Positions 3,647 to 33,436 of a stretch of 48,271 nt of DNA are shown here, one piece after another. This DNA is from Oceanospirillaceae bacterium. GTDB lineage: Bacteria; Pseudomonadota; Gammaproteobacteria; Pseudomonadales; Balneatricaceae. The first letter of the stretch is position 1. Every line of letters starts with the position of its first letter. The stretch spans positions 1 through 48,271 of the forward strand of contig JABXIM010000064.1 of the NCBI GenBank assembly GCA_013373085.1, written 5' to 3'. A program made the translations under genes and the position numbers. Below the pieces are notes generated by a model. It saw only the letters and a list, made by a program, of their open reading frames with translations. It did not search any database and was not told the origin of the DNA.

Positions 3647-3714
3647 TTGGTATCGCTCCTTCAAAACGACCGTCATGGTCGCAAATCTTTGGGTAAATTA
3701 GTGTCCGCCGGGTC

Positions 3715-5022
3715 CTATTGCAAGTATGGGGACCAGGCAGGTTCCCTGACATCGCCCGACGACGCCGGCATGCGGAAACGCACCCGTCCGTCCAGCGACG
3801 ACGCCGCCAGCACACCGCGATTCCCCTCCTGAGTGGCATAGAGCACTATGCTGCCATTGGGGGCAATGGTCGGCGACTCGTCCAGGCTGGTCTGGGTCAG
3901 AATATCCAGCCGCCCGGTTTTGAGGTCCTGCACCGCGATATTGAATGCGGCACCGGCACCGGCGCTGCGGTGCACCATCGCCAGGAAACGTCCGTCCTGG
4001 GTTAGCTTACCGCTGCTGTTGTAGTTGCCCTCGAAGGTAACGCGCTCGATGCGCCGGTCCGCCAGGTAAACCCGGTAGATCTGCGGCTGACCGCCACGGT
4101 CCGAGGTGAAGAGTATCGAACGACCATCCGGCGCCCAGGTCGGCTCGGTATCGATGCCGTAATGGTGTGTAATCCGGGTCAGCTGGCGCTGCGCCAGATC
4201 GAGTACATAAACCTCCGGATTACCGTCCTTGGACAGGGTCAGCGCCAGGCGCTGACCGTCCGGCGCCCAGGCCGGTGCACCATTGAGCCCCGGGAACGAC
4301 TGCACTTTCTCGCGCTGCCCGCTCGCCAGGTGCTGCACGTAAATGCCGGGCCGCGAGCTCTCGAACGACACGTAGGCCAGCTTGCTGCCGTCGCGGGACC
4401 AGGCCGGCGACAGGATCGGCTCGCGCGACTCAAGTATGGTACGCGCCCGGGCACCGTCCGAATCGGCCAGCTGCAACTGGTAGAGATGCTGACCGTTACC
4501 GCGGGACTGGGCCGTGACATAGGCGATCCGGGTCGAGAATGCGCCCCTGACACCGGTCAGCTTCTCGAACACCTGATCGGCGATATAGTGCGCGATATCG
4601 CGCATGTTGCCGGTGGTGCCCGATATCTGCTCGCCGAATACCCGCTGCTCCTTGAGCACGTCGTAGAGTTCGTAAACCACGTCCAACTGCTGTCCACCGG
4701 TGGAACTGATGCGGCCGATCAGCAGGTAGTTCTGCCCCGAAACACGCCAGTCACGGAAATACACCTGATTCTGCTGGGACGGAAAACTGAGCATATCTGC
4801 ACGTTTCATGGTGGCGAAAAAGCCACTGCGCTCGAGGTCCGTCGAAACGATGGCGGCAATGTCCTCGGGCAGCGCCGCCGTGCCACTCGAACCGAACGGC
4901 ACCACCGCCAACGGCGTCGGTGCATCGACGCCCTGGGTCACCTCCACCACCAGCTCGGCACGCGCCGCGAACGGCAGCGCCAGCATCAGCAACAGACAGC
5001 AGGCCAGCAATTTATCCTTCAT
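3715..5022 (-). CDS. tolB: Tol-Pal system protein TolB
   Basis: Periplasmic beta-propeller protein that binds Pal and is controlled by TolA as part of the trans-envelope machine for outer-membrane invagination. The 435-aa protein has a signal peptide (about 1-22, LPFAARA|EL), an N-terminal domain ([44 protein letters not shown]) and six propeller blades with repeated [32 protein letters not shown] and [19 protein letters not shown] motifs. The length is typical. It starts 4 bp after the tolA stop, so the two are translationally close. Confidence 0.98.
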
Positions 5023-5026
5023 CGTT

Positions 5027-6037
5027 TTACCACCTCAATCCTTCCGGCCGGAAATTGACTCTGAATCGGCGCAGATTGCGCTCAAAGGTCAGCGGATCGA
5101 CTTCCGCGACCCGCGGGAAGCGGTCGGCCCGCAACACTGCCTTGACCGCAGAATCGTCGAATCCGGGGTCACCGCTGCTTTGCACCAGGCTGGCACTGTC
5201 CACCTCGCCCGAGGGGAACAGCCTGACCTCGACCACCGCCACCATACCGTTGCGCGCCGTCGTCGGGATATTCCAACTCCGCTGCAACAGCGAGTTGATG
5301 TAATCGCCGATCTGCGCCACCTGCTGCTTCGCCGCCCGCTCTGCGGCCACACGCTCTTCGGCGGCAATCGCCCGAGCCAGCTCTTCAGCCTCCTGGCGCT
5401 TGCGCTCGGCCTCGGCCTGCTGCCGCTTCTGTTCCTCCAGGCGCTTCTGCTCTTCGCGCTTTTTCGCCTCGGCAACCTTGCGTGCCTTTTCCTCGGCCTT
5501 TTTCTTGGCTTCGGCAACACGTTTGGCTTCCGCTTCAGCCTTGCGCTTGGCTTCGAGTTCCGCCTGCTTTTTCTTCTCCGCCGCGACCCGCGCCTGCTCC
5601 TTGAGTTTCGCCTCTTCCTGGCGGGCGATCTCCTGCTGGCGCTTGCGTTCGGCAGCTTCCTGCGCGACCTTCTCTTTAGCCGCCTGTTCCTGCACGGCCT
5701 TTTTTTCCGCCGCTTCGCGCGCCGCCACTTCCTGCTGACGCTTCTGTTCCTGCTGGCGCTTCTGCTCGGCCAGGCGTTGCTCCTCGGCCTTGCGCTGATC
5801 GGCTTCGCGACGCTCCTGCTCGCGCCGTCTCGCCTCGTCGGCCTTGCGCTGATCGTCCTTCTGCTTCTCCTGCGCCTGGCTCACCGCACCGAGGTCCACC
5901 ATCTGCGCGGTGATATGCCGCGGCCTGAGCTCGCGCGGATCGGCATGGTCGAACCAGTGTCCGGCCAGCAACAGCAGCACCAGAATGTGCACCAGCAGCG
6001 CCAGCAGCACCGGCACCAGATAACTGCGCATATCCAC
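5027..6037 (-). CDS. tolA: cell envelope integrity protein TolA
   Basis: Inner-membrane protein that reaches across the periplasm to TolB and Pal and transmits the proton-motive-force-driven motion of TolQR. The 336-aa protein has one N-terminal transmembrane helix (about 7-28, [20 protein letters not shown]), a very long Ala/Lys/Glu/Arg/Gln helical domain II (about 55-240) and a C-terminal domain III (about 243-336, [47 protein letters not shown]) of the TolA/TonB fold. The frame begins with GTG at 6037; an ATG two codons later (6031) is an alternative start. It is 9 bp after tolR. Confidence 0.97.
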
Positions 6038-26408: not shown

Positions 26409-27860
26409 TCAACCAAAGGCCGCAGCCAATCCGGCGTGGGAGCGGTCATCCGGGCCCGCTCCATTCCCCCCCGTCAAGGCGATACTCCGATGCACGGTGC
26501 GCGCGATCAGCTCCGGGTCGTGACTGACGATCAGCACCGCACAGCCCTGACATGCCAGTTCGCGTAGCAGCCCGATCACCTCCTGCTGGGTAATGGGATC
26601 CAGGCGCGAGGTCGGCTCGTCGGCGAACAGGAACACGGGCTCCAGCAGCATGACCCTCAGCAGCGCCAGACGCTGCAGCTCGCCACCGGAAACCTCACCG
26701 GGCCGGCGTTCAAGCAGGTCGGGCCGCAACCGCAAACGCTGCATCAACGGCGCGACCCTGGCGGCATCGAGACGGTGACGCCGTACCAGGTCGCGAAGGG
26801 CCGTCCCCAGCGGCAGCGTGCGCGGAAAGGCGCTGGGCGGGTCCTGAAACAGCTTCTGGTAGGCGTGCGGGCGTGCCACCGAGCGTTCCACCCTGCCGCT
26901 ATCGGGCCCGTGCAGGCCCAGCAGCACATCGCCGAGCGACGACTTGCCGCAGCCGCTCGGGCCGGTAATGCCGACGATCTCGCCCGCGCCGACGCGCAGC
27001 GAAAGCCCCTCGATGAGGGAGCGCCCGCCCCGCGACAGGCTGAGGTCCTGCACCTCCAGCAGCGTTTCGGTCCCTGTCTGCGCAGGCGATGTCGTCGCCC
27101 AGCGGCGCGGGTCGGCGGCCAGCAGGCGACGCGTGTAGTCCTGGTGCGGCAATTCGAAAATCACCGCACTCCTGCCCCGTTCGACCAGAGCCCCCTGCCG
27201 GATAACCAGCACTTCACCGCCAAGGCGCTGCGCCAGATCCAGGTCGTGGGTCACCACCATCAGCGAGCCCCCGGCCGCGACTTCCTGCAGCAGCAGTGCC
27301 GCCACTTCGTCACGTCGTTCCGCATCGAGCCCCTTGGTGGGTTCATCGGCGATCAGGATGCGGGCGCCGCCGGCCCGCGCCGCGGCGAACGCGACCCGCT
27401 GCGCCATGCCGCCGGACAACTGGTGCGGATAGCGCCGCGCCGCCCCGGCCAGGCCCAGTGCCGCCAGATCCCGATTCGCTGCCTGCTCGGCGCGAAGCCG
27501 TCCCAGCCCGCGCACCAGACTATGCGACTCCGACACCTGCTGCTGCGCCCGCATCAACGGGTCCAGCGACAACCAGGGCTCCTGCGGCAGCACCGCGATC
27601 TCGCGTCCCCAGAGACGGCGGTGATCCGCCGGACGGGCGGCATCGAGAACAGTATCGCCCAGACAGATGCGACCACGGGCCTTGAGGCCCCTCGGCAGTG
27701 CGCCGGTCAGCGCCTGGCTCAACAGGCTTTTGCCGGAACCGGTCTCGCCCAGCACCACCAGCGGCCGTCCCGGCTCGAGCCGGATGCTGACCGGCTCGAG
27801 CAGGCGCGCCCCATCTGAATCGAAAACGCTAATGTCGTCAGCTTCCAGTCTCGGTGTCAT
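26409..27860 (-). CDS. Opp/Dpp/Nik-type ABC transporter, fused double ATPase
   Basis: 483-aa cytoplasmic energy subunit with two ABC domains in one chain, as in YejF and GsiA. Domain 1: Walker A GETGSGKS (38-45), signature LSGGMAQR (148-155), Walker B ILIADEPT. Domain 2: Walker A GPSGCGKS (300-307), signature VSGGELQR (about 408), Walker B FLFADEPT, then IVSHDPELIA. ATG 27860 overlaps the stop of the upstream permease (ATGA); the longer open frame further upstream runs through that permease and is not used. Last gene of a four-gene operon. Substrate is discussed under the binding protein. Confidence 0.92.
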   Translation of the reverse strand: MTPRLEADDISVFDSDGARLLEPVSIRLEPGRPLVVLGETGSGKSLLSQALTGALPRGLKARGRICLGDTVLDAARPADHRRLWGREIAVLPQEPWLSLDPLMRAQQQVSESHSLVRGLGRLRAEQAANRDLAALGLAGAARRYPHQLSGGMAQRVAFAAARAGGARILIADEPTKGLDAERRDEVAALLLQEVAAGGSLMVVTHDLDLAQRLGGEVLVIRQGALVERGRSAVIFELPHQDYTRRLLAADPRRWATTSPAQTGTETLLEVQDLSLSRGGRSLIEGLSLRVGAGEIVGITGPSGCGKSSLGDVLLGLHGPDSGRVERSVARPHAYQKLFQDPPSAFPRTLPLGTALRDLVRRHRLDAARVAPLMQRLRLRPDLLERRPGEVSGGELQRLALLRVMLLEPVFLFADEPTSRLDPITQQEVIGLLRELACQGCAVLIVSHDPELIARTVHRSIALTGGNGAGPDDRSHAGLAAAFG

Positions 27861-28675
27861 GCCTGGCGCCCTCCCGCCATCAGGTTTAGCCCCAGCAGGG
27901 TCAGAAAGATTGCGATCACCGGCTGCAGCAGCGTCAGCGGCGCTTCCCGCCAGTACGGCATCAGCTCGACCATCATCAGACCGAGTTCCGGCGTCGGTGC
28001 CTGCATGCCGACGCTGACGAAGCCCAGCGCCGCGATTGTCATGACACCGGTCGCCGCGCCGAAGGCCGCCGTCGTCAGCAGCAGTTGCGCGATCTCGGGC
28101 CAAAGATGGCGACGGAACAGATACAGCCGCCCGAAGCCCAGCAACCGCGACGCCTGCACGCCCGGACTCGCCAGCAGGCTGCGGCAGGTGGCGCGCGTCA
28201 GGCGGAAGAACTCGATCCAGAGCACCAGCGTCAGACCGGCGCCGAACGCCAGCGGCCTCGGCGGGATCAGGGCGCTCAGAATCAGCACCAGTAACAGTCC
28301 CGGCAACGCCAGCAGGCTATCGGACACCAGCACCAGCGCGCGGTCGACCCAGCCGCCGCGGGCGGCCGCCAGCACGCCCAGCGCCACCCCGAGGCAGGCA
28401 GCCGCGACCACCGCGACGCCGGCGATCAGCAACGACAGCTGCAGCGCCGCGGCCAGGCGCTGGATCATCGAACGCCCGAGATGGTCGTAACCGAAAGGCG
28501 CCGCCGCATCGGGCGCGCCCAGCGCCTTGAGTAACGACTGCCCGTAGGGGTCGCCCGGCGCCAGCCAGGGTGCCAGCCAGGCAAACAACACCACCGCCAA
28601 CACCAGCAGCGCGCCGACCCGGCGCGACCCGCGCCGGCCCGTTGTTCTCGATAATCTGTCGGTCATGTTCGTCAC
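27857..28675 (-). CDS. ABC transporter permease (DppC/OppC/NikC type)
   Basis: 272-aa inner-membrane protein with an N-terminal helix (VGALLVLAVVLFAWLAPWLA), the DppC-type segment GDPYGQSLLKALGAPDAAAPFGYDHLGRSMIQRL, and five further helices with the EAA-like loop ASRLLGFGRLYLFRRHLWPEI. The start is GTG 28675, overlapping the TGA of the preceding permease; ATG 28666 is an alternative. It forms the channel with the DppB-type partner. Confidence 0.9.
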   Translation of the reverse strand: MTNMTDRLSRTTGRRGSRRVGALLVLAVVLFAWLAPWLAPGDPYGQSLLKALGAPDAAAPFGYDHLGRSMIQRLAAALQLSLLIAGVAVVAAACLGVALGVLAAARGGWVDRALVLVSDSLLALPGLLLVLILSALIPPRPLAFGAGLTLVLWIEFFRLTRATCRSLLASPGVQASRLLGFGRLYLFRRHLWPEIAQLLLTTAAFGAATGVMTIAALGFVSVGMQAPTPELGLMMVELMPYWREAPLTLLQPVIAIFLTLLGLNLMAGGRQA

Positions 28676-29604
28676 CTACCTGTTCCGCGCGGATCGAGCC
28701 GACGCTGCAGAGCGTCATTCAGGGCGTTCAGCAACACGAACGTCAGCCCCATGACCAGCGCGGTGCCCTGTACCATTGGCACGTCGCGCCCGAAGATCGC
28801 GTGCACCAGGCCATGGCCGATACCGGGCCAGCCGAACACGCTTTCGACCACAACGACGCCTTCGACCAGGGTCACGAACTGCAGTCCGAGACAGGTGACC
28901 AGCGGCACCGAGACATTGCGCAGACCATGGCGCCACAGCACCTGGGCGTCGCTGAGCCCCTTCTGACGCGCGAAGCCGTAGAACGGCGACGCCGCCACGG
29001 CCGCCATCGCATCCCGCGCGATGCGTGCCGACAGCGCCGCCAGCCCGAGGGCCAGTGTCAACGCCGGCAGCACGAAATGGCCGGCGCTGCCATGACCCGC
29101 GGCCGGCAGCCATCCGAGCCGCACCGACACCAGCAGGATCAGCAGCAATCCGAGCAGGAACTGCGGCATCGCCCGCAGTCCCGAGGCCAGGACCAGCAAC
29201 CCGCGATCCAGCCAGCCGCCCGGCTTCAAGCCGGCGAGGATGCCAAGCGGCGGCCCGAGCAGCAGCGAAAGCGCCAGCGCCACCGCCGCCAATTGCAGAC
29301 TGGCGCCAAGCTGATGGGTAATTTCGCCGATAACCGACTCGCCGCTGACGAGGGAGGTGCCGAAGTCCAGCCGCACCATATCGGTGAGCCATTGCACCAG
29401 TGCCGGCAGCAACGGGCCGCCGAGGGCCAGCTCTTCCTGCACCAGGCGCACGGCATCGGCGTCGACCAGGTCGTAGCCGTAACGGTGCGCCGCGATGCGC
29501 CAGGCCATGTCCCCCGGCAGCGAACGCATCATGGCGAAGGTCGTCACACCGATAAAGAGCGCCAGCAACAACGCCTGCAGCAGGCGATATCCGGTTGCCG
29601 CCAT
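28672..29604 (-). CDS. ABC transporter permease (DppB/OppB/NikB type)
   Basis: 310-aa inner-membrane permease with six hydrophobic helices. Helix 1 is LLQALLLALFIGVTTFAMMRSLPGD, the standard start of DppB-like proteins, and the EAA loop is FARQKGLSDAQVLWRHGLRNVSVPLVT. The C-terminal VVESVFGWPGIGHGLVHAIFGRDVPMVQG is the most conserved part of the family. ATG 29604 lies 2 bp after the binding-protein stop, with GGAGG inside the end of that gene. Confidence 0.93.
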   Translation of the reverse strand: MAATGYRLLQALLLALFIGVTTFAMMRSLPGDMAWRIAAHRYGYDLVDADAVRLVQEELALGGPLLPALVQWLTDMVRLDFGTSLVSGESVIGEITHQLGASLQLAAVALALSLLLGPPLGILAGLKPGGWLDRGLLVLASGLRAMPQFLLGLLLILLVSVRLGWLPAAGHGSAGHFVLPALTLALGLAALSARIARDAMAAVAASPFYGFARQKGLSDAQVLWRHGLRNVSVPLVTCLGLQFVTLVEGVVVVESVFGWPGIGHGLVHAIFGRDVPMVQGTALVMGLTFVLLNALNDALQRRLDPRGTGR

Positions 29605-29606
29605 CC

Positions 29607-31109
29607 TCAGTCCCTCCAGCTCAGGGCATCGAGGCCGAAATCCCGCTCGAACGGGTCAAGGCGGGCACCGTTCAGCCGCCGCGAGACCGCAGCGGTCTGC
29701 CGGTACCAGGCCACCGGGATCACCGGCAACTCCCGCTGCAGGATCGCCATCGACTCGAAGCGCTGCTGTGCACCACCCTCGCCGCGGGCCAGCCCGCGGA
29801 TCAGCGATTCGAAACGGTCGTGACGCCAGCCCATGGCGCCCCAGTCGCCGCTCGGCGCGTAGTCCTGGAGCAGGGTACCGACCGGGTCCGGCACCAGCGC
29901 GAAATTGCGCGCGAACAGCGCCAGCTCGAGGCTACCGTTCTGATGTCCCTCAGGGATCGCCGACGAATTGGTCGAATGGATCTTTACTTCGACGCCGATC
30001 TGGCGCCACAACTGCTCGAGCACCGTCGCCACCAGCGGCAGTTCGGGCCGGTCGGGATAGGTGGTGAGACTGAGCGAAAAACGTTCGCCGTCGCGTCTCA
30101 GGATGCAGTCCTGCCCCGGTTGCCAGCCCAGCGCCTGCAACAGCGCCTTCGCCGCTTCCGGGTCGTAGCCGGGCGCAGCGGCCTCGGGGTCGTGCCAGAG
30201 CGGTACGCTCGGCGGCAGCAGCTGGTTGGCCGCGGCCTCGTAACGCAGCACGGCCCGGGACAGACCTTCACGGTCGATCGCCAGACTCAGGGCGCGGCGG
30301 GCCCGGCCGTCGGACAGAAAGGGATGTGCGGCGTTCAGCTTGACCAGCAGCGAGCGCGGTAGGGGCGCCGACAACAGCTCCACCGTGGCGCTGCCGGCAA
30401 GTCTTGCGCGGCTGGCCGGATCGAGATTGTAGACCAGATCGGCATTACCGCTCTCGGCCAGCAATGCCCGGCTCTCCGCCCGTCCCACCGCGCGGTAGGT
30501 GGCGCTGCCGATGCGGGCAGGCACTCCCCAGTAATCGTCGAAACGCGCGACCTCAAGACTCATCGGCGGCGTCAGCGAGGTCACGCGATAGGGGCCGGTG
30601 CCGATCAGGGCGCGGACCCGGCCGTCATCGTCATAAGCCGCCGGGGCCAGGATCTGAGAGCGATACTCGGACAGAAATGCCGGCAGCACCGCCAGTGGTT
30701 CGGACAGCTGCACGACCACCGCCCCGGCAACGGCCTCGATCGCCGCGATCGGTGCCTTGTCGAGCAGACCGGGCTTGTCACGGGCGATGCGCAGCGACCG
30801 GGCGGCGGCTTCGGCCGTCAGCGGACTGCCATCATGAAAGTGTACGCCGGAGCGCATCGGGAATTTCCATACAAGCCCGTCCGCCGAGACCGACCATGCC
30901 TGCGCCAGACCGGGCCGCAGCTGGCCGTCGATATCGGCATCGACCAGTGTTTCGGCGATGCCCATACGCTGGAACACCGCGCCGGAAAGGGCCGGATCCG
31001 GCCCCTTGACCTCGAAAGGCGCCACCACGTCGAGCGTACGGTCGCTGCTGGCCGCCGCCGGTCCGGCCAGCGCCAGACACGCCAGGGTTGCTGCTACGAG
31101 CTTTTTCAT
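29607..31109 (-). CDS. ABC transporter family 5 substrate-binding protein
   Basis: 500-aa periplasmic binding protein with a signal peptide (about 1-21, LAGPAAA|SS). It has the SBP_bac_5 features GLAQAWSVSADGLVWKFPMRSGVHFHDGSPLTAE, LIGTGPYRV, RARRALSLAIDREGL and YDPEAAKALLQALGW. Members bind peptides, nickel complexes, opines or glutathione. It heads the operon and its promoter region carries two Zur-box-like palindromes, so uptake of zinc bound to a small ligand is a fair inference; staphylococcal Cnt is a known metallophore importer of this class. No metallophore synthesis gene or TonB receptor lies nearby. Confidence 0.9.
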   Translation of the reverse strand: MKKLVAATLACLALAGPAAASSDRTLDVVAPFEVKGPDPALSGAVFQRMGIAETLVDADIDGQLRPGLAQAWSVSADGLVWKFPMRSGVHFHDGSPLTAEAAARSLRIARDKPGLLDKAPIAAIEAVAGAVVVQLSEPLAVLPAFLSEYRSQILAPAAYDDDGRVRALIGTGPYRVTSLTPPMSLEVARFDDYWGVPARIGSATYRAVGRAESRALLAESGNADLVYNLDPASRARLAGSATVELLSAPLPRSLLVKLNAAHPFLSDGRARRALSLAIDREGLSRAVLRYEAAANQLLPPSVPLWHDPEAAAPGYDPEAAKALLQALGWQPGQDCILRRDGERFSLSLTTYPDRPELPLVATVLEQLWRQIGVEVKIHSTNSSAIPEGHQNGSLELALFARNFALVPDPVGTLLQDYAPSGDWGAMGWRHDRFESLIRGLARGEGGAQQRFESMAILQRELPVIPVAWYRQTAAVSRRLNGARLDPFERDFGLDALSWRD

Positions 31110-31127
31110 CGAACCAATCTCCGATTT

Positions 31128-31150
31128 AAAATGTTATATCATCACAATTC
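31128..31150 (-). promoter_or_regulatory. Zur-box-like palindrome, proximal
   Basis: The plus strand reads AAAATGTTATA, one base, then CATCACAATTC. Against the gammaproteobacterial Zur consensus as I recall it (GAAATGTTATA-N-TATAACATTTC) it matches at 18 of 22 defined positions. It ends 18 bp before the ATG of the binding-protein gene, overlapping or just before the ribosome site, where a repressor would block transcription. Confidence 0.6.
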
Positions 31151-31165
31151 AGAGGCCGCGGACTC

Positions 31166-31188
31166 TATATGTAATAACATAACATTTC
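31166..31188 (-). promoter_or_regulatory. Zur-box-like palindrome, distal
   Basis: The plus strand reads TATATGTAATA, one base, then CATAACATTTC, 18 of 22 matches to the same consensus. Its centre is 38 bp from the centre of the proximal box, so both would lie within one promoter. The stretch is AT-rich compared with its surroundings. Confidence 0.6.
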
Positions 31189-31299
31189 AATCGATTTCCC
31201 ATGGCGTCGAAGGCAGCCTCAGGCGCCGGCACGGCAAACGACAGGGTCGGGGCAGCATGATACACTGCCGCCCTTTGCCTGCAGGAGAGAGTCGTAAAG

Positions 31300-32115
31300 A
31301 TGAAGCTGGTCTCGTTCAACACCAACGGAATACGCGCCCGTCTGCACCAGCTCGAGGCGCTGATCGCGACACAGCAGCCGGACGTCATCGGCATCCAGGA
31401 GACCAAGGTCATTGACGGTGAGTTTCCCGTCGAGGCCATCGAGGCCATGGGCTATCACGTCGAGTTCCATGGCCAGAAGGGACATTACGGCGTTTGCCTG
31501 ATGTCGAAGCAGCCGCCATCGATGCTGCAGAAAGGCTTTCCCGACGACGGCGAGGAGGCCCAGAAGCGGCTCATCATCGGCCGCTACCCCACCCCCGACG
31601 GACGCCAGGTGACGGTCATCAACGGCTACTTCCCGCAGGGCGAAAACATCGCCCATCCGACCAAGTTCCCGGCCAAGCGCAAGTTCTATGCCGACCTGCT
31701 GGCGCACCTGCAGGCGCACTGCGATCCGTCAGAGCTGCTGGTGGTGATGGGCGATCTGAATATTTCCCCGGAGGATATCGATATCGGCATCGGCGAGCCC
31801 AACCGCAAGCGCTGGCTGCGCGACGGCAAGACCAGCTTCCAGCCGGAAGAACGGGAATGGCTGCAGCGACTCAAGGACTGGGGCTTGCAGGATACCTACC
31901 GCGTCGTGCGCCCCAATGACGACGAGCACTTCAGCTGGTTCGATTACCGTAGCCGTGGCTTCGAGCGCGAGCCCAAGCGCGGCCTGCGCATCGACACCAT
32001 CCTCGCCACGGCGCCGCTTTGTGAACTCTGCGCCGACGCCGGCATCGACTACGACGTGCGCGGCATGGAGAAACCGTCGGATCATGCGCCGGTGTGGGCA
32101 ACGTTCGACCTTTAA
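31300..32115 (+). CDS. xthA: exodeoxyribonuclease III
   Basis: Major AP endonuclease and 3'-5' exonuclease of base-excision repair. The 271-aa protein has [22 protein letters not shown], the catalytic metal ligand E34 in [45 protein letters not shown] and the C-terminal [12 protein letters not shown] with the catalytic Asp-His. ATG 31300 has GCAGGAGAGA upstream. It is divergent from the ABC operon, with 190 bp between start codons. Confidence 0.97.
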
Positions 32116-33294: not shown

Positions 33295-33436
33295 ACTGTC
33301 TCCAGCAGGCTACAGTTATTCTGTAACTCCGCGACCGCCGTTCCGGCACGGAGTCGGAAAATCCGGCAGTTCCCGCTCCCGCGGGGCACGCCGGTCTGCT
33401 AGGATCACCAGGATACATGCTAAGGATAGTGCGCCC

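Follow-up and report, generated by a model that had tools for sequence, protein, structure and literature searches.

Two predicted Zur boxes precede an Opp/Nik-type ABC operon that probably imports a zinc–ligand complex

What does an Opp/Nik-type ABC importer carry when its promoter bears two palindromes that resemble Zur boxes, and is it zinc that controls it? The locus lies in a 48,271-base stretch of DNA from an Oceanospirillaceae bacterium (the window), in which four genes form an operon on the minus strand (26409-31109), neighbours overlapping or standing two bases apart. The first gene (29607-31109) encodes a family 5, cluster C binding protein of 500 residues (Pfam SBP_bac_5, 6.1e-66), here called the window protein, whose N-terminus by eye resembles a signal peptide. 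It is followed by a DppB/NikB-type permease (28672-29604; Pfam BPD_transp_1, 1.4e-36), a DppC/NikC-type permease (27857-28675; BPD_transp_1, 2.1e-14) and a fused ATPase of 483 residues with two ABC domains, seen as two ABC_tran stretches (26409-27860; we took the ATG at 27860 as its start, an earlier TTG being present in the reading-frame list). The top NCBIfam matches of the permeases, Opp2B and NikB for the first and Opp2C and NikC for the second, are all below cut-off. The operon is flanked by a divergent exonuclease III gene (31300) and a glutathione-reductase-like gene. No synthesis genes adjoin it, and the 48,271-base window holds no relatives of the COG0523/ZigA, ZnuA and TonB-receptor queries that we used. 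A search of the genome for opine dehydrogenase (PF10100) gave no match, a result made uninformative by 14 equally silent control genomes.

The original prediction described two palindromes with centres 38 bp apart, each matching a gammaproteobacterial Zur consensus at 18 of 22 positions, close to the binding-protein start. We find both as described. The 23-mers at 31128-31150 and 31166-31188 each fit that consensus at 18/22 positions, and because they fit it no better, a search of the window at up to three mismatches returns no match. Their 17-bp cores are centred on 31139 and 31177; the distance from the start codon (31109) to where each core begins is 22 bp for the first and 60 bp for the second. 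Box A (31169-31185, minus strand; coding-strand sequence ATGTTATGTTATTACAT) sits in the spacer of a sigma-70-like promoter, TTGAAA-17-TAGAGT, predicted by consensus scan (31162-31190, minus strand), and predicted box B (31131-31147, minus strand) falls between this promoter and the start codon.

To keep the test independent of the operon, we built a 17-bp matrix solely from znuA-upstream DNA. The input was 47 of many znuA-family promoters (7 same-genus and 40 same-family), in which sites were chosen by at least 10 of 12 matches to GTTATANTATAAC, a consensus set beforehand; nothing from the tested operon was used. Forty-four promoters qualified, their sites scoring 18.9-33.4 bits (median about 31), and the three that had no site (L248, L249, L251) were left out of the matrix. 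When 30 held-out znuA-family promoters were scored, 16 gave 17.2-33.4 bits and 14 (L184-L195, L089, L090) less than 10 bits, the latter probably belonging to importers of another kind. These 14 and the three omitted from training make 17 ZnuA-family promoters with no site above 10 bits or 8/12 matches; perhaps they serve importers of another metal.

Boxes A and B rank first and second among all sites in the 48,271-base window (19.3 and 16.9 bits), ahead of a third at 12.2 and a fourth at 2.2 bits. The genome's own znuA/zur site, against which the original prediction had proposed to compare them, scores 21.9 bits. Both boxes lie below the median znuA site, box A at the low end of the training range and box B just under the lowest training site. 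Order-0 p values are 5.4e-8 for 19.3 bits and 1.6e-7 for 16.9 bits, with 0.3 and 0.9 chance sites expected in 5.78 Mb, and 1 of 5000 dinucleotide shuffles of 31110-31299 contains any site of at least 16.9 bits. Four further SBP_bac_5 genes were found in this genome, and in the 1500 bp ahead of their domains the best score is -3.2 bits.

In the genome as a whole, the short core GTTATNNNATAAC at up to one mismatch occurs at 40 sites against 71 for its reversed control, and GTNATNNNATNAC at 32 against 20 for its control, neither count being significant. The matrix finds 12 sites of at least 12 bits in 187,220 bases of this genome, an enriched sample picked around candidate cores. Predicted reading frames enclose those in L162, L167 (at 1373), L168, L169 (at 2529, 17.2 bits) and L171 (16.0 bits), and one in L177 (15.0 bits) precedes RusA-like and restriction-like genes. 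Sites of 16.0 and 17.2 bits within reading frames agree with about one chance site of such strength per genome, and since the high sites fall in reading frames or before non-zinc genes, no further zinc gene was found in these 187,220 bases. The case for the boxes rests on the presence of two sites at one promoter together with their conservation.

The third site in the window (33313-33329, 12.2 bits) stands before a universal stress protein gene. We rejected it as a member of the regulon, no comparable site being found around the 89%-identical stress protein gene of the same-genus genome G002, and it is probably due to chance.

The genome carries two FUR-family genes, one of which adjoins znuA and a znuC-like ATPase gene; its product matches the NCBIfam Zur model at 112.3 bits, below the cut-off of 167.

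Comparison of the regions upstream of orthologues was another check proposed in the original prediction, and here too the boxes hold up. In the genus, the binding protein occurs in 5 of 7 genomes, each time with a box that lies 60-77 bp ahead of the matching stretch. A pair of boxes like that of the window is present in G002, the second (16.9 bits) at the corresponding place. The 17-mer of box A recurs unchanged before the Marinobacterium rhizophilum gene (L006) and with one mismatch before that of G002. Across the family, the binding protein is found in 18/116 genomes (E of 1e-80 or better, our own included), and each of the 18 orthologues has a box of at least 16.9 bits. At greater distance, 24 of 80 loci from named genomes have an exact GTNATNNNATNAC between -300 and +60 of the match, compared to 0.4 expected from 14 matches in the 992,664 other bases of these loci. 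By matrix, a site of at least 12 bits lies near the gene in 51 of 114 loci, the other 63 scoring below 12 bits (a few genomes are counted twice). Zur-like boxes precede many operons of this type, both in alpha- and gammaproteobacteria and on plasmids, and this suggests a role for many of them in zinc starvation. For the operon in the window, the predicted control by Zur is well supported at the level of sequence by the matrix scores, the conservation and the genome's own Zur gene beside znuA.

We also examined the neighbours of the operon in its relatives; reading-frame calling was rough in GC-rich loci, and named neighbours were checked by Pfam, NCBIfam or tblastn. Over 92 loci, a COG0523 gene is found in 19, a TonB receptor in 13 and ZnuA clearly in one (a second match is weak); some of the COG0523 copies are about 5 kb distant on the opposite strand. 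Five COG0523 proteins were compared with the ZigA zinc-metallochaperone family, of which one scores above the cut-off and three just below, the protein from L049 not being ZigA. Both TonB receptors that we scanned exceed the cut-off of the TonB-dependent siderophore receptor subfamily.

Thirty-one named loci have a COG0523 or TonB receptor match, and in 22 of these we looked for a box in front of the head gene; among the other nine, the gene lies elsewhere in L011, L032, L034, L043-L045 and L081, and L073 and L082 are cut by the contig. A box stands within 450 bp of the head gene in 8/22, namely before COG0523 genes in L015, L023, L024, L026 and L041, before ZnuA and a ZigA-like gene in L020, and before a TonB receptor in L065 and L070. 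In four others (L017, L019, L021, L049) the best site is about 1 kb further up, and the remaining 10, betaproteobacterial loci led by a TonB receptor or COG0523 gene, have no box recognised by the matrix.

Three arrangements among these loci can be added. In the two Belnapia loci, L065 and L070 (about 3694-5900), a siderophore-type TonB receptor precedes the binding-protein gene, with a box of 25.2 or 19.3 bits directly upstream, a candidate outer-to-inner-membrane route for chelated zinc. A TonB receptor also precedes the binding protein in the betaproteobacterial L062, L072, L074, L078, L083 and L085-L088, with no box that the matrix recognises. In the alphaproteobacterial L019 (3577-4491) and L021 (3536-4450), a gene for an FAD-dependent oxidoreductase lies between the Zur-like box and the COG0523 gene.

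Plasmids carry the operon as well: we examined 4 of 131 plasmid records. In the copies from Pantoea ananatis, P. dispersa and Gemmobacter the boxes score 15.5-25.2 bits, and an annotated zigA adjoins the Pantoea copy. The Agrobacterium vitis copy reaches just 8.9 bits, yet it has the exact motif given for Paracoccus denitrificans pden4139 (zur) in the published motif set (PMC5387054). On the P. dispersa plasmid (L254), an ABC importer annotated as binding protein, iron permease and ATPase lies immediately upstream of the operon. A second Zur-like box (3701-3717, 21.3 bits) is found 14 bp ahead of this importer, which recalls Pseudomonas PA2911-2914. DNA similarity searches of 31100-31300 against plasmids and of 26409-31300 against E. 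coli gave no match.

A tree of 108 rows (quick method, unrooted, with SH-aLRT as its only support measure) places the window protein together with its G002 orthologue in a 38-row group supported at 99%. The other members of this group are two Cobetia, one Enterovibrio and 33 alphaproteobacteria, most of them Rhodobacterales. Three further same-genus genomes have genes that are placed elsewhere in the tree, with 49-51% identity to the window protein. The simplest account, and a likely one, is that the operon has spread by horizontal transfer and that in many recipients a Zur-like box stands before the operon or its lead gene.

A member of this group has been studied in P. denitrificans. According to Neupane et al. 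2017, pden1341-1344, annotated as a Ni/dipeptide ABC transporter, is 12.6-16-fold up under zinc depletion, the pden1341 promoter is bound by Zur in EMSA, and Zur motifs lie upstream of pden1341 (at 26-40 bp) and of pden1338, a COG0523 gene (at 19-33 bp); the authors regard Zur control of a cluster C transporter as somewhat unusual (PMC5387054). Both published motifs occur letter for letter, and at exactly the published distances, in genome G145 of our set, which is therefore P. denitrificans itself or a very close relative. The G145 binding protein shares 61% identity with the window protein and belongs to the same 38-row clade, and both permeases follow it in its locus (L149). One of the genes between the pden1338- and pden1341-type motifs encodes DUF1826; DUF1826 is named in a figure legend on Zur-regulated COG0523 gene clusters (Haas et al. 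2009, PMC2770081). By analogy with this orthologue, for which zinc-dependent induction and Zur binding are reported, we infer that Zur would repress the operon in the window. The original prediction had also held that no well-described Zur-controlled system of this architecture was known in this group. For gammaproteobacteria this stands, as we found none in the open-licence full texts searched, but the alphaproteobacterial pden1341-1344 is a precedent (PMC5387054).

What, then, is the cargo? An AlphaFold2 model of the binding protein (pLDDT 90.4) has NikA and other nickel-binding proteins as its nearest PDB folds, in the first ranks (TM 0.78-0.87), with CntA at ranks 25-32 (TM 0.78-0.85) and the dipeptide binder DppA at rank 17 (TM 0.76). 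Since CntA and DppA are intermingled, fold alone cannot separate chelate from peptide binders. In a profile search, a Bacillus nickel-binding protein, CntA and NikA rank first, before peptide binders. All 11 NCBIfam families matched by the binding protein fall short of their cut-offs, including CntA (101.7 bits against 800) and NikA (194.1 against 600 and 146.6 against 393). Histidine 416 of NikA, essential for nickel uptake according to a PDB title, aligns in a low-identity alignment to a non-histidine position beside an invariant GDWG. Taken with the ZigA, ZnuA and siderophore-type TonB receptor neighbours in relatives, the NikA-type folds favour the zinc-related role that had been proposed over that of a general dipeptide transporter. 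We consider it likely that the operon encodes a Zur-repressed ABC importer of a zinc–ligand complex; for the zinc complex as cargo, taken by itself, we would say probably.

Zur could instead control the import of something other than zinc, such as a peptide, histidine or a complex of another metal (nickel, cobalt), that eases zinc shortage. Family 5 proteins are diverse in their ligands, the closest folds are those of nickel-binding proteins with DppA also high, and the passages of PMC5387054 on pden1341 assign it no substrate. In addition, a P. denitrificans aztC znuA double mutant is described as deficient in zinc acquisition and growing poorly in zinc-limited medium (PMC7731109), so the pden1341-1344 importer is no full substitute for AztC and ZnuA. 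This result fits a complex that was absent from the medium, and equally a cargo without zinc. The zinc-related neighbours in relatives and the profile matches, which place nickel-binding proteins, CntA and NikA above peptide binders, argue against such a cargo, and we regard it as unlikely.

A Zur-controlled importer of free zinc ions, redundant with ZnuABC, would also agree with the induction and Zur binding in P. denitrificans (PMC5387054). However, the same double mutant lacks sufficient zinc acquisition (PMC7731109), chelates or peptides are the ligands described for the closest relatives of solved structure, and the binding protein has just 7 histidines in 500 residues, which together make this reading quite improbable. 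Finally, although the unremarkable counts of the bare core, the strong sites within reading frames and the unconserved third site would suit palindromes that arose by chance in AT-rich DNA, or that serve an unrelated regulator or another member of the FUR family, we rejected this very improbable reading on the matrix ranks, with scores near that of the genome's own znuA/zur site, the shuffles, two sites 38 bp apart at a single promoter, the boxes before 18/18 family orthologues and the published Zur binding for an orthologue (PMC5387054).

If the operon is a Zur-repressed importer of a zinc–ligand complex, it could work as follows. When zinc is sufficient, zinc-loaded Zur would occupy box A, which the predicted -35 and -10 hexamers flank, together with box B immediately downstream, blocking transcription; as zinc falls, Zur would leave and the importer would be made. 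In the periplasm, the binding protein would then gather the zinc–ligand complex, to be carried inward by the permease pair and the fused ATPase, beside ZnuABC, which would handle zinc ions. As no synthesis genes adjoin the operon, the ligand would come from the surroundings.

It is tempting to speculate that a widespread, horizontally moving importer family, usually under the Zur of its host, enables bacteria without a zincophore of their own to acquire zinc in complex with small molecules that their neighbours release. Such general zincophore piracy, in which NikA/CntA-like proteins provide the Gram-negative inner-membrane step for chelated zinc, is a tentative idea that we hold to be possible but not probable. 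The identity of the cargo would reveal how chelated zinc may cross the Gram-negative inner membrane, and whether bacteria steal zincophores. Operons of this type are easily taken for nickel or dipeptide importers. Regulation in one species was already published; our analysis adds breadth, gene neighbours and likely horizontal spread.

Among known systems, pden1341-1344 is like the window operon in having an orthologous binding protein, two permeases and one ATPase gene, with a Zur motif just before the first gene that by eye shares 13 of 15 letters with box A (published motif, PMC5387054). It differs in its surroundings: COG0523 and DUF1826 genes precede pden1341-1344, whereas the window operon stands alone behind two boxes, with no COG0523 gene beside it. 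In E. coli NikABCDE, NikA is the best structural neighbour of the window protein (TM 0.81-0.87), yet the two share 22-23% identity, histidine 416 is not kept and the cut-offs are missed. NikABCDE is under NikR control, and the window operon has Zur boxes in its place. The staphylococcal Cnt system (cntKLMABCDFE), which imports staphylopine–metal complexes, is alike in the role we propose, import of a metal–ligand complex, and CntA is among the top profile matches of the window protein. Cnt has two ATPase genes together with synthesis genes, whereas the window operon has one fused ATPase and no adjoining synthesis genes. Control of Cnt by both Zur and Fur is noted in the passages on its regulation (PMC8000910). 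Pseudomonas PA2911-2914, for its part, is presented as a Zur-regulated second importer, proposed for chelated zinc, whose binding protein is of cluster A-II and so of another class than the window protein (as outlined in PMC10393844).
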